NCBI GenBank assembly: GCA_017465475.1
Contig: JAFTWC010000042.1
Location: forward strand, 21,398 to 85,397
Length of the DNA stretch: 64,000 nt
Source: Lachnospiraceae bacterium
Lineage (GTDB): Bacteria; Bacillota; Clostridia; Lachnospirales; Lachnospiraceae
Direction: 5' to 3'
Below, one piece after another: positions 1,920 through 62,966 of this stretch. The notes under the pieces are model-generated. The model did not search any database and had not been told where the DNA came from. It was given only the letters and a program-made list of their open reading frames with translations. The translations under genes were made by a program, and so were the position numbers. Numbering within the stretch: the stretch's first letter is position 1; every line of letters starts with the position of its first letter.

Positions 1920-2669
1920 CTACTTTTCTTTCACACTGTCACGCAGTGTCTGTACTTCTTCCTCCGTAAGCGGTCTGTACTCTCCCGGAAGCAAAGTCTC
2001 ATCTAATGTAACTCCTCCCATTGCCATCCGCTTTAAGTACAACACTTCATTTCCTGTTGCCGCAAACATCCTCTTTACCTGGTGGAACTTTCCTTCCTGT
2101 AATGTAACTGCGGCAGCACATCCGCCTTCCGGCAAAAAAATTTCTTTCTCCTGTTCGGTCAACGTCCTAAGAACCGCCGGCATAGCAGTCAGTTCCTCAT
2201 CCACCTTCATTCCGGAGGCAAATACTTTCACATCTTCCTCGGTAATCTCTCTTATAAGCTTCGCAAAATATAATTTATCCGCATGCTTTTTCGGAGAAAT
2301 CAGTTGATGGGACAATATCCCGTCATCCGTAAGAAGCAAAAGGCCTTCCGTATCCTTATCAAGCCGCCCCACCGGAAATAAATTCCTTCGTTTTTTATCC
2401 TCGGATGACAACAGGCTCAAAACAGTCCTTGCCTCATTGTCCTTCGTTGCAGACACGGTTCCGGCAGGCTTATTTAACATATAATAAACAAACTTCTGAA
2501 AGGTCAGTTTTTCTCCGTCCAATGTCAAAACATCGCTGTCTTCTTTCACCTGCTCCGCAATGGTTTTTCTGACATCACCGTTTACACAAACTCTGCCCTT
2601 TGTAATTACGTCTCTTGCCTGGGACCGGGTCATACCGGTCAGCTCTGCCACAAGCTTGTCTAACCGCAT
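1920..2669 (-). CDS. rsuA: RsuA-type 16S rRNA pseudouridine synthase
   Basis: Family members make pseudouridine 516 in 16S rRNA. The 249-residue protein has an N-terminal S4 domain (MRLDKLVAELTGMTRSQARD) followed by the catalytic domain with YYMLNKPAG, the active-site motif GRLDKDTEGLLLLTDDG, and the C-terminal GKFHQVKRMFAATGNEV block. Motif order, length and the RPLTEEE tail fit RsuA better than RluB, RluE or RluF. It starts 11 bases after the methyltransferase gene, so two 16S modification enzymes sit side by side. Confidence 0.85.
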   Translation of the reverse strand: MRLDKLVAELTGMTRSQARDVITKGRVCVNGDVRKTIAEQVKEDSDVLTLDGEKLTFQKFVYYMLNKPAGTVSATKDNEARTVLSLLSSEDKKRRNLFPVGRLDKDTEGLLLLTDDGILSHQLISPKKHADKLYFAKLIREITEEDVKVFASGMKVDEELTAMPAVLRTLTEQEKEIFLPEGGCAAAVTLQEGKFHQVKRMFAATGNEVLYLKRMAMGGVTLDETLLPGEYRPLTEEEVQTLRDSVKEK

Positions 2670-60943: not shown

Positions 60944-61564
60944 CTATAATCTTTTCTTCACAATATTCTTATAAATGTTTTTCTTAAAATCGGATTTTGA
61001 ATGAAAAAACTCTGACTCGGACTTCGTTAAAACTGTTTTCTGTGCAATTGCTTCAACCGTACAAATCAAATCCGCTACTTGCGACAGCTTATATTGATTT
61101 GTTTCTATTTTTCTGAATTCCACATTAGAAAACATCGTATTAAATACCGAAAGCAATATTTGCGTCAGTTCAATCTGTCCGTAATCATAATAAACAATAA
61201 TCGAATCAAATGCGGCTATATTCTCATAGTTTTCTCTCAAACTGCTTATAATCTCTTTTGTCAACTTTTCTATATAAGCCAATTTTGTTTTTTCTTTACA
61301 TTCTCCTTGATCAATACTAGAACATATATACTTAATATCTACCATTCGGGTAAAGTGATATAACGCATTAAAAAGAGCTCTCCTGTTTTCCCTCAAATCA
61401 TTTTTATAATTGCTTATCTGTTTTTCTAAGGCAGATATGTTTCTTTCAATATCTACTTCTTGATTATGTAAAACCATAGCAACATAATAATTCGGTGATG
61501 ATGGATTATATTGGCCGAAATCGCCGGACTCATCCACAAAGACGCTTAGAACTTTATTTTTCAT
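60944..61564 (-). CDS. DUF3800 protein, RNase-H-like candidate nuclease
   Basis: A 206-residue protein of the DUF3800 family. The N-terminal VFVDESGDFG carries Asp11 and Glu12. Further acidic residues in RNase-H-like positions are Asp127 (after a beta strand, VYYDYG) and Asp165 (in the C-terminal helix QVADLICTVE). This layout fits a metal-dependent nuclease, though activity is not established. DUF3800 proteins are known to be found near structured RNAs, and one precedes this gene. Start at 61564 with GGGAG upstream. Codon use is AT-richer than the neighbours, suggesting transfer. Confidence 0.82.
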   Translation of the reverse strand: MKNKVLSVFVDESGDFGQYNPSSPNYYVAMVLHNQEVDIERNISALEKQISNYKNDLRENRRALFNALYHFTRMVDIKYICSSIDQGECKEKTKLAYIEKLTKEIISSLRENYENIAAFDSIIVYYDYGQIELTQILLSVFNTMFSNVEFRKIETNQYKLSQVADLICTVEAIAQKTVLTKSESEFFHSKSDFKKNIYKNIVKKRL

Positions 61565-61584
61565 AAACACTCCCATTTGTATAA

Positions 61585-61678
61585 CAAAACGGCGGGGTAA
61601 ATCCCCGCCAGCCGGTGGACCTGGACCTCTCGGTCAGCCCAAAGCAAAATGCACTTAGTGCAACAGATTCATATCTGT
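61585..61678 (-). ncRNA. Structured leader RNA upstream of DUF3800 gene
   Basis: Read on the minus strand from the predicted start at 61678, about 94 bases fold into a chain of hairpins: ACAGAT-ATGA-ATCTGT (61663-61678), TGCAC-TAA-GTGCA (61650-61662), GACC-GAGA-GGTC with a GNRA loop (about 61625-61636), a weaker CCAG/CTGG stem, and a closing GGCGGGG-ATTTA-CCCCGCC (61591-61609) followed by GTTTTG. The closing hairpin is terminator-like and lies just before the gene. By known work, DUF3800 genes are often preceded by distinct conserved RNAs (DUF3800-I to -XI motifs); which one this is, I cannot say. Confidence 0.72.
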
Positions 61679-61684
61679 AACATT

Positions 61685-61713
61685 ATTATATGCTTTTTTC
61701 TTAAAAATGTCAA
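61685..61713 (-). promoter_or_regulatory. Exact consensus promoter of the leader RNA and DUF3800 gene
   Basis: Minus strand: -35 TTGACA at 61708-61713, 17-base spacer, -10 TATAAT at 61685-61690. Both boxes match consensus exactly. A start 7 bases downstream is the first base of the 5' hairpin. Confidence 0.9.
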
Positions 61714-61763
61714 CTACAACTTTTAAATCTTTTCCTCCCATCTACTATTACCTCTTGCATTTC

Positions 61764-62966
61764 TTACCTTCCCCCTACCTGATACCTCAAATATGCCCGT
61801 CTGCCGATTATCACAAACACAACGCTCAACAGCACATACACAATCGGAGCCACCTGCTGCATGGTCAAAAATCCGCCCAGGACCGGCACCAAACGGTAAT
61901 CCAAAAATCCCCATATCGCCACTACATTGATTGGATTTAAATCAAAGATTTGTCCCAACACCCGGTATTCATAAGGAACCATTACCAGCATCGGAAGAAG
62001 CACAAGTACGCCGATAATTGCCACTACCGCCACCGTACTGTTACGGAACAGCTCCGAACAACACAGAATAATGGAGGAATACATAAGTGCTGCAAGAATT
62101 GTCAATATATAGCAATACCATATTGCCTCTCCGAAGGTCATCTGCACCATAGCAGACGGCATCACCAACTGAATCGGTGCATGGAGTCCTTCTGTTCCGA
62201 AAATCAAAAGCTGCGGAACCGCCGATATCAGTAAAATAATACCGGCACTCACCATGGTAAACACCATTCCCGCAGTAAGCTTTGCCCAGTACAGTATCTT
62301 TCTACCGTTGCGGCTGCACAACACCAGCTGATCGGTCTTTTTCTGATGTTCGTCCGCAAACAGATTTGCCAGACAAACCGCCAGCATAACCGCGATCAGT
62401 ACAACCGCGGTATAAGCCAATGTCAACGCAGAATAAGGCCCCACATAATACTCATAGGTCCACGGCACGGAGTCCTCATTTTCAAGAACTTCCCGCCAAT
62501 AGTCCTTTTCCTTCTCCGTCAGATATTGTTCCTCCATGGCAGATTCAATTCGTATTTTTCTGGCGGCATAAACCAGTTCCTCAGCCGCAGAAATCCCCAA
62601 TACCTCTTTCATCTTTTCCAGTGTTCCTGCATTTGAGACAGCCGTACCGCATACCTCTCTTACTATAACATTATATACATCCGTGTAAGGCTTAAATGCA
62701 GTTTCACTTGTTGTCAATGCCGTAAACGCCTCTTCCACCAATACATCATCCACGGTTCTTCCTATAATCGGCTTTTGATTTTCCTTATCCTGCCGCTCTG
62801 CCTCGTATTGGGTTGCTTGTACCCCTTTTATGTCACGCGTCACGGTCACCTCAATCACAGCATATGCCACCATGGTCAGAAATACCAACCCGAATGCAAT
62901 CCAAGTCATCTTCCTGCTTAGTATTTTCTTTAGTTCAAAACGGACTAAGGTTCGAAAATTTTTCAT
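61764..62966 (-). CDS. ABC transporter permease, ABC-2 type
   Basis: A 400-residue membrane protein: one N-terminal helix (17-37), an extracellular domain of about 130 residues, then five to six helices (TLAYTAVVLIAVMLAVCLANLFADEHQKKTDQL) as in ABC-2/DUF3526-like permeases. The cytoplasmic loop LVLCSRNGRKILYWAKL is the typical ATPase contact loop. It follows the ATPase by 2 bases, so the two are partners. Substrate unknown. Confidence 0.85.
   Translation of the reverse strand: MKNFRTLVRFELKKILSRKMTWIAFGLVFLTMVAYAVIEVTVTRDIKGVQATQYEAERQDKENQKPIIGRTVDDVLVEEAFTALTTSETAFKPYTDVYNVIVREVCGTAVSNAGTLEKMKEVLGISAAEELVYAARKIRIESAMEEQYLTEKEKDYWREVLENEDSVPWTYEYYVGPYSALTLAYTAVVLIAVMLAVCLANLFADEHQKKTDQLVLCSRNGRKILYWAKLTAGMVFTMVSAGIILLISAVPQLLIFGTEGLHAPIQLVMPSAMVQMTFGEAIWYCYILTILAALMYSSIILCCSELFRNSTVAVVAIIGVLVLLPMLVMVPYEYRVLGQIFDLNPINVVAIWGFLDYRLVPVLGGFLTMQQVAPIVYVLLSVVFVIIGRRAYLRYQVGGR

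Follow-up and report, generated by a model that had tools for sequence, protein, structure and literature searches.

The DUF3800 RNA motifs reportedly originate from Weinberg et al. 2017, and the AbiF RNA motif is said to come from the same catalogue as the motif DUF3800-XI. The latter, Rfam family RF02975, is modelled as a 48-nt core with a DUF3800 gene next to it. No function or test of the DUF3800 RNAs was found in the literature searched, in which most subscription papers lay beyond reach. A comparable arrangement is the AbiF system of Clostridioides difficile: according to its description, which cites the DUF3800-XI motif catalogue, AbiF RNA neutralises the AbiF protein in cis and in trans, making a type III-like pair (PMC12373285). 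AbiF and the DUF3800 module share a structured RNA placed before an effector gene; they differ in that AbiF is a HEPN protein accompanied by two RNA motifs, whereas the module described here combines DUF3800 with one P1-P2-P3 unit. A tandem-repeat RNA antitoxin is given there as a feature of type III toxin-antitoxin systems (PMC12373285). Phage counter-measures of this kind are also on record: pseudo-ToxI, an RNA mimic of ToxI, suppresses ToxN (PMC5449768), and a phage antitoxin mimic acts against DarTG (PMC11481870). DUF3800 itself is reported to adopt an RNase H fold and to act as an accessory at certain Cas12a2 and VI-F loci (PMC10910872, PMC12669027). This TPR-DUF3800 accessory has the DUF3800 domain in common with the present module and differs by its CRISPR context and, for Cas12a2, by TPR domains, neither of which is seen here.

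The window, that is, the whole stretch of 64,000 nucleotides analysed, comes from a Lachnospiraceae bacterium and carries one such module, with the following features:

61685..61713, minus strand: sigma-70-type promoter, TTGACA-17-TATAAT, 12/12 consensus letters, near the left edge of the module
61650..61678, minus strand: 5' part of the RNA (P1 region), two small hairpins, from the fold, outside RF02975
61616..61641, minus strand: P2, the core hairpin, with which RF02975 begins; 6 + 4 pairs interrupted by a bulge of 2 nt, with covariation
61610..61615, minus strand: P2-P3 linker, its first base being the conserved C of the CACC-type joint, from RNA alignments
61586..61609, minus strand: P3, GC-rich hairpin (61609-61591) and T tract, from covariation and from a terminator scan that marks 61610-61586
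60944..61564, minus strand: DUF3800 gene, 206 aa, ATG at 61564, from ORF and Pfam
60954..61764, minus strand: inserted stretch, 811 bp, missing at the corresponding site in four genomes of the genus, with boundaries placed to within about 15-25 bp

The exact promoter that a sequence-only reading had reported is indeed found on the minus strand at 61713-61685. It is the single exact TTGACA/TATAAT pair (spacer 16-18) in the window, as compared to a mean of 0.04 in 50 mononucleotide shuffles, while window-type relatives mostly have TTGATA-17-TATAAT at this position; a transcription start just downstream would be predicted from it. The leader (61679-61577, minus strand) has an MFE of -41.4 kcal/mol and a z of -4.2, none of 200 shuffles being equally stable. 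It folds into four hairpins at about 61678-61663, 61662-61650, 61641-61616 and 61609-61591, with TTTT after the last, in agreement with the series of small stems closed by a GC-rich hairpin and a T tract described earlier. The suspicion that this RNA is one of the DUF3800 motifs was correct: RF02975 matches at 61641-61594 (minus strand) with 58 bits against a gathering score of 37.8, over positions 1-48 of the 48 of the model, and the leader thus belongs to a known, catalogued Rfam family. The gene has 30.9% GC versus 43.6% for the window, which bears out its AT-richness, and its product scores 32.1 bits with Pfam PF12686 (DUF3800; cut-off 21). A further in-frame ATG upstream, at 61576, overlaps the likely ribosome-binding site. 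The window genome (88.8% complete) holds a single RF02975 match and a single DUF3800 match.

By its order of promoter, RNA, terminator and effector gene, the locus resembles the type III toxin-antitoxin systems ToxIN, CptIN and TenpIN. The terminator-like hairpin and T tract, judged from the letters, sit between RNA and gene in the window and in its relatives, so the layout initially noticed in one locus is common to the relatives. The module differs from type III systems in having neither tandem RNA repeats nor, by Pfam, a protein of ToxN/CptN/TenpN-type family; as already noted from the letters, no direct repeats were found in 61560-61720. The proposed kinship with type III toxin-antitoxin loci is therefore supported in the sense of working alike, given the gene's dependence on the RNA, the gene-less RNAs and the solo phage copies described below, and finds no support as a matter of membership, since repeats are lacking and Pfam gives DUF3800 in place of a ToxN-type family.

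The RNA goes beyond what RF02975 models, with one more hairpin on the 5' side and another on the 3' side that covaries. The RNA set comprised 106 RNAs merged to 105, L117, L118 and L112b being excluded (L117 and L118 are probably false matches); the pattern used for this set finds no RNA at L035, which nevertheless has an RF02975 match of 42.2 bits. The covariation alignment, A1, holds 101 of the 105 copies in 92 distinct rows, without L101, L109, L111 and L115. Over these 101 copies, 93.4% of the cells of P2 and P3 are paired, and 11 of the 17 pairs show changes on both sides. The covariation score reaches 0.294, as compared to 0.134 in shuffles (0/500 as high) and at most 0.140 with the partners slid, and the covariation across homologues anticipated for this leader is thereby present. 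P3 contributes both-side changes in 6 of its 7 pairs, and the structure line of RF02975 leaves it unpaired. With the 14 TGGTCT-type rows set in register, 16 of the 17 pairs hold in at least 87 of about 92 rows, and the closing U-A pair holds in 65/91. P1, absent from RF02975, is a hairpin upstream of the core whose sequence differs by subtype; a P1 stem of at least 6 occurs in 74 of the 105 RNAs, versus 33.4 expected. The window-type RNA has two such small 5' hairpins, conserved in 23 window-type copies; in these the longest run of columns below 70% consensus is 1 and the mean conservation 0.94. A guide RNA of an RNA-guided nuclease (OMEGA, TnpB/IscB-like) was considered and rejected, as a variable segment is absent and the RNA is near-constant over the 23 copies. 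To note, L086 has a second, separate hairpin and T tract after P3, and P3 and terminator seem distinct there.

The three acidic residues predicted as RNase H-like, Asp11, Asp127 and Asp165, are at the positions named earlier and correspond to D11, D146 and D184 of the relative L003; they are invariant across 56 aligned proteins. Aligned with its 55 relatives, the window protein is without 19 residues, and the missing block holds the near-invariant H61, G63, P64, I66, R67 and E69 (L003 numbering). D11, the H61-E69 segment, D146 and D184 (L003 numbering) are putative catalytic residues. With that segment missing, the window copy is probably inactive, through a 57-bp in-frame deletion (in the region 61390-61430) that may be biological or an assembly error; in the window the effector seems dead and the RNA the remaining part. 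All 56 aligned proteins match Pfam DUF3800 at E 0.1 or better, and Pfam assigns neither the window protein nor any of the 56 to a ToxN-type family. PADLOC yields no match for the window protein and, for the 56 relatives, six weak families, the commonest in 4/56 and the best at E 3.7e-4. The DUF3800 proteins give weak matches only with PHROGs, and a sequence search of solved structures returned one chance-level match (E 0.25).

In the bacterial genomes the gene seems to require the RNA, and the RNA can do without the gene. RF02975 is found in 60 of 397 family genomes, which disposes of a leader occurring by chance in one genome, with 82 matches, 73 of them above cut-off. Behind the 82 matches lie 30 ORFs of at least 200 aa (including the window's and that of L091, with a changed C-terminus), 14 partial ones (for three of which fewer than 700 bases of contig are left), nothing in 37 cases and a contig end in one; for the 73 above cut-off, the figures are 29 ORFs of at least 200 aa (with the window), 14 broken or cut, 29 none and one contig end. 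The gene usually starts within about 110 bases behind the RNA, and a profile built from these proteins detects no DUF3800 upstream of, or antisense to, the 82 RNAs. Conversely, the 397 genomes contain 33 full-span DUF3800-XI matches, two with internal stops: 30 have RF02975 directly upstream, two have a diverged RNA (G041 and G224:C30, seen by eye and unreported by Rfam) and one is cut by the contig end. The RNA is present at 32 of the 32 testable full-span genes, two of them by eye. No RNA was seen at the gene fragments L270 and L272. An intact gene without RNA exists at L016, from another collection, at a contig edge where the upstream letters (bases 1-101) are unrelated; this edge is perhaps a mis-assembly. 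The L016 genome has an RF02975 match elsewhere, and 31 of the 32 aligned leaders of that collection carry the RNA.

The gene-less RNAs were compared with full modules over 76 of the 82 RNAs (the window, L062, L100, L112b, L117 and L118 being left out), with a search model that uses neither P1 nor promoter. A P1 stem of at least 6 is found in 16/34 gene-less RNAs (2.7 expected) and 18/28 full modules, and a promoter of at least 10/12 in 11/34 (1.1 expected) and 13/28, respectively. Because P1 and promoter are retained above chance, these RNAs are not plain debris. Several of them keep an apparent ribosome-binding site and the first codons of the lost gene, so gene loss may be recent. One such case can be followed in the genus of the window, where G397 has lost most of the DUF3800 gene: identity with the window is 86/90 for the RNA, 967/1200 for the ABC gene (p 1e-4), 212/241 for the remaining gene part (p 0.04) and 27/34 for the promoter, which is no better conserved than the ABC gene. 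Among modules, RNA and protein distances agree (Mantel r 0.82, 0/5000 permutations, 46 pairs), an agreement that does not establish contact, as genes that are linked have their history in common.

Some gene-less loci stand out on their own account. L045 and L048 belong to different genera; their RNAs show 99% identity along 101 bases, and each alignment stops close to the lost gene's start codon, which may reflect a spreading RNA-only form or a shared deletion. At L095, the RNA, a ribosome-binding site and first codons like those of a lost DUF3800 gene directly precede a 366-aa ORF that is acyltransferase-like by eye.

The module is inserted DNA, as a search of ten genomes from the genus of the window, its own among them, brought out. 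In G398, G399, G400 and G401 the site is empty and the ABC gene directly adjoins the sequence found behind the module, while G397 has the insertion in common with the window. At a second site a module is present in G400, and in G397 and G398 some 90-115 bases separate the flanks; at a third a module is present in G401 and missing from G397, from G400 and from the genome of the window. Compared pairwise, 25 module copies mostly cease to be similar immediately ahead of the promoter at one end and no more than about 15 bases from the stop codon at the other, and most copies have unrelated flanks. L003 and L004 (97.6% identical) are similar from 83 bases before the core to 31 bases behind the stop. 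In a group of close copies similarity extends to about -150 and +150, and to -1096 for L004/L030, because flanks are shared. The genus of L079 has 2 genomes, which makes its empty-site comparison uninformative. Reading the junctions of the three presence/absence sites disclosed no inverted ends or convincing target duplication of the sort that mark a DDE-type transposon; a candidate duplication at site 3 was discarded, the 7-bp overlap resembling the Shine-Dalgarno sequence of the next gene. As a separate observation, the same hairpin repeat (..GGGTGTATTTCGCTCTGCGAGGC) lies about 86-94 bases before the RNA core in seven modules of two RNA subtypes (L004, L005, L008, L030, L031, L075 and L087). 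It has 6 matches in 5 of the 397 genomes, 3 of the 6 adjoining modules, and also occurs without module (L293, L294, L297); it is a possible target or hot spot. Many module contigs are labelled Lachnospiraceae, and some from MAGs (L004, L012 and others) are labelled Bacteroides, Muribaculaceae, Treponema or Spirochaetia, which means either transfer across phyla or mis-binned contigs.

Copies of the RNA are also found in viral contigs. A general P2 pattern has 59 matches, spread over 58 viral stretches. The pattern sets no condition on the inner stem, which is fully paired in 40 of the 59, with two, one and no pairs in 8, 4 and 7, respectively; in a reversed-pattern control the stem is full in 2/21. 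A DUF3800 gene follows 4 of the 40 full-stem RNAs (L305, L322, L341 and L349), and a six-frame profile search detected no other in the viral stretches examined (stretches of the large contigs rather than whole ones). A separate pattern-based protein scan found 17 contigs, none of the other solo-RNA contigs being among them. RF02975 scores above cut-off in 12 of 14 viral loci scanned, L302, L310, L312, L318, L326, L328, L329, L334, L336, L345, L346 and L355, of which L318, L328 and L346 are near-identical, and below cut-off in L327 and L344. The RNA-bearing viral contigs are 18 to 176 kb long. The stretches of L312, L329, L336, L344 and L345 contain several tRNA genes, those of L327 and L355 a single one and the other seven none; ROOL is present in the L344 and L345 stretches, and in L318, L328 and L346 a drum RNA (RF02958) directly precedes the DUF3800-XI RNA with an overlap of four bases. 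The 116-kb viral contig of L355, which bears a DUF3800-XI RNA, also has a type-P5 twister ribozyme at 2321-2374 (minus strand).

Of 20 proteins from the viral stretches 15 have a PHROG match at 1e-5; the proteins of L329 and L310 have none. The matches include terminase (L326, L334), portal (L334, L355), PhoH (L326), exonuclease (L318, L302), RNA ligase (L344), homing endonuclease (L345) and NrdD (L327), among others; on these matches, terminase and portal included, L326, L334 and L355 have the strongest claim to being viral. The cores of the phage RNAs L318 and L326 are identical to that of the bacterial L042 at 54 of 56 positions, suggesting that phages and the bacterial pool exchanged it recently. 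RNA and gene also occur together in viral contigs: of the 17 relatives found there, RF02975 is above cut-off in 12, and in another 3 the RNA is recognised by eye. A search with the window protein alone retrieved no close relatives in viral contigs, the alignment being what reached these 17, and L291, a phage record with a partial DUF3800 match, has no RF02975 match. Among named phages, the L318 RNA has no match and the L310 RNA gives five records with short chance-level pieces.

P3 was followed in the phage RNAs after merging near-identical copies, 27 being kept (18 with a 4-base loop, 9 with a 5-base loop). In the solo RNAs with a 4-base loop a P3 stem of at least 6 is found in 12/18 (1.5 expected), and 9 of these 12 have no T run of 4. 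In this group P3 seems to have a role beyond termination, because the stem persists without T run. The 5-base-loop solo RNAs, of the cow-rumen-3 type, have such a stem in 2/9 (0.8 expected). P1 is not uniformly kept in phage copies, several being without a detectable stem of 4.

A second RNA family, cow-rumen-3 (RF03083), enters the comparison through the same core. The window leader scores low with its model (17.9 bits, E 0.051), and in four phage contigs that match cow-rumen-3 in full (99-144 bits) the RNA has the same P2 core at its 3' end; 3 of the 4 stretches contain tRNA arrays. A P2-only model from DUF3800-XI RNAs alone finds 4/4 cow-rumen-3 loci at E 7e-5 to 8e-4 in 42 kb, a comparison and not a blind search, because these loci had been chosen by a cow-rumen-3 consensus pattern. 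The model R1 comprises 52 RNAs, TGGTCT-type and many near-identical RNAs being left out. The cow-rumen-3 RNA thus resembles DUF3800-XI by a 3' domain made of the P2 core, with the same letters, and differs by its 141 nt and by having no DUF3800 in the examined stretches. In bacterial family genomes it was found in 0/200, a figure that does not show absence because no control genome gave a match either. No paper on cow-rumen-3 was found in the literature searched.

The observations comprise a conserved covarying RNA, an RNA at each testable gene, gene-less RNAs, sites with and without the module, and phage copies. The explanation that we favour, with belief and doubt in about equal measure, is that the RNA restrains DUF3800 in a mobile, type III-like module of gut bacteria with a defence role, the phage RNA copies acting as mimics. 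The RNA would be a short transcript probably ending at P3, and the protein would be made from read-through past P3. The protein, presumed to be an RNase H-fold nuclease from the fold given in the literature, would bind the RNA, with P2 and the CACC joint as the most likely points of contact, and RNA in excess would keep it inactive. Infection would then shift the balance between RNA and protein, and the freed nuclease might harm the cell or the phage. By carrying copies of the RNA, phages could hold the nuclease bound, much as pseudo-ToxI does with ToxN; an RNA mimic being known for ToxIN (PMC5449768) is a further likeness to that system. A restraining RNA is suggested because the gene hardly ever occurs without the RNA, the RNA persists without the gene and phages have solo copies. 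Against it, an RNA needed for activity would equally explain why no gene is without RNA, and the gene-less bacterial RNAs could be young remnants.

Such an activating role is the main rival. The RNA would be a cofactor or guide scaffold of an active nuclease, as in OMEGA/CRISPR effectors, and the phage RNAs competitive decoys. It is in keeping with the want of any testable gene without RNA in the 397 genomes, with DUF3800 as an RNase H-fold accessory in some Cas12a2/VI-F loci (PMC10910872, PMC12669027) and with RAGATH-18, another structured RNA, reported to guide TnpB (PMC11061315). We hold it rather unlikely, since the 23 window-type copies contain no guide segment, though most copies have unrelated flanks, and since gene-less bacterial RNAs with promoter and P1 would be of little use to an active nuclease. 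If the leader were instead a cis-acting attenuator only, with the protein or a ligand binding it to set read-through, the terminator-like P3 just before the gene and the gene start usually within about 110 bases would be expected; that no gene can be detected behind 29 of the 73 RNAs, that phage contigs carry the RNA without gene in the examined stretches and that a P3 stem without T run is kept in 9/18 phage copies render this account quite improbable.

In another alternative, DUF3800 and the RNA would themselves move a selfish 0.8-0.9 kb module by transposition or homing. Most module pairs being similar only from right ahead of the promoter to the neighbourhood of the stop codon, the three presence/absence sites in one genus and the seven copies of two RNA subtypes adjoining the same repeat all fit such self-movement; we still regard it as very improbable in view of phage solo RNAs without gene and of three sites read without terminal inverted repeats or convincing target duplication. 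Finally, the solo RNAs may serve the phage otherwise, common ancestry reflecting an RNA recruited by the bacterial module. Some of them do lie beside ROOL, drum or tRNA genes or, for cow-rumen-3, cow-rumen-4 genes; the 54/56 identity of the L318 and L326 cores with bacterial L042 speaks against it, and we consider it unlikely.

RNA-restrained effector modules are already known; the new elements here are another effector family, the absence of repeats and the candidate phage mimics. In its widest form, which we put forward tentatively and with somewhat more doubt than belief, the proposal is that DUF3800-XI proteins are anti-phage effectors held by a three-hairpin RNA and countered by phage RNA mimics, the phages including large ones that have tRNA arrays and cow-rumen-3 carriers. 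If true, this would be an arms race of RNA against RNA over an effector of RNase H type; two orphan RNA families and one DUF would acquire a function together, and RNA-restrained defence would gain a new effector family. The solo phage copies turn the function of the DUF3800 RNA into a question answerable by a two-plasmid test, and they make further RNAs from the tRNA arrays of phages, cow-rumen-3 and drum for example, candidate decoys of host RNA-protein systems.
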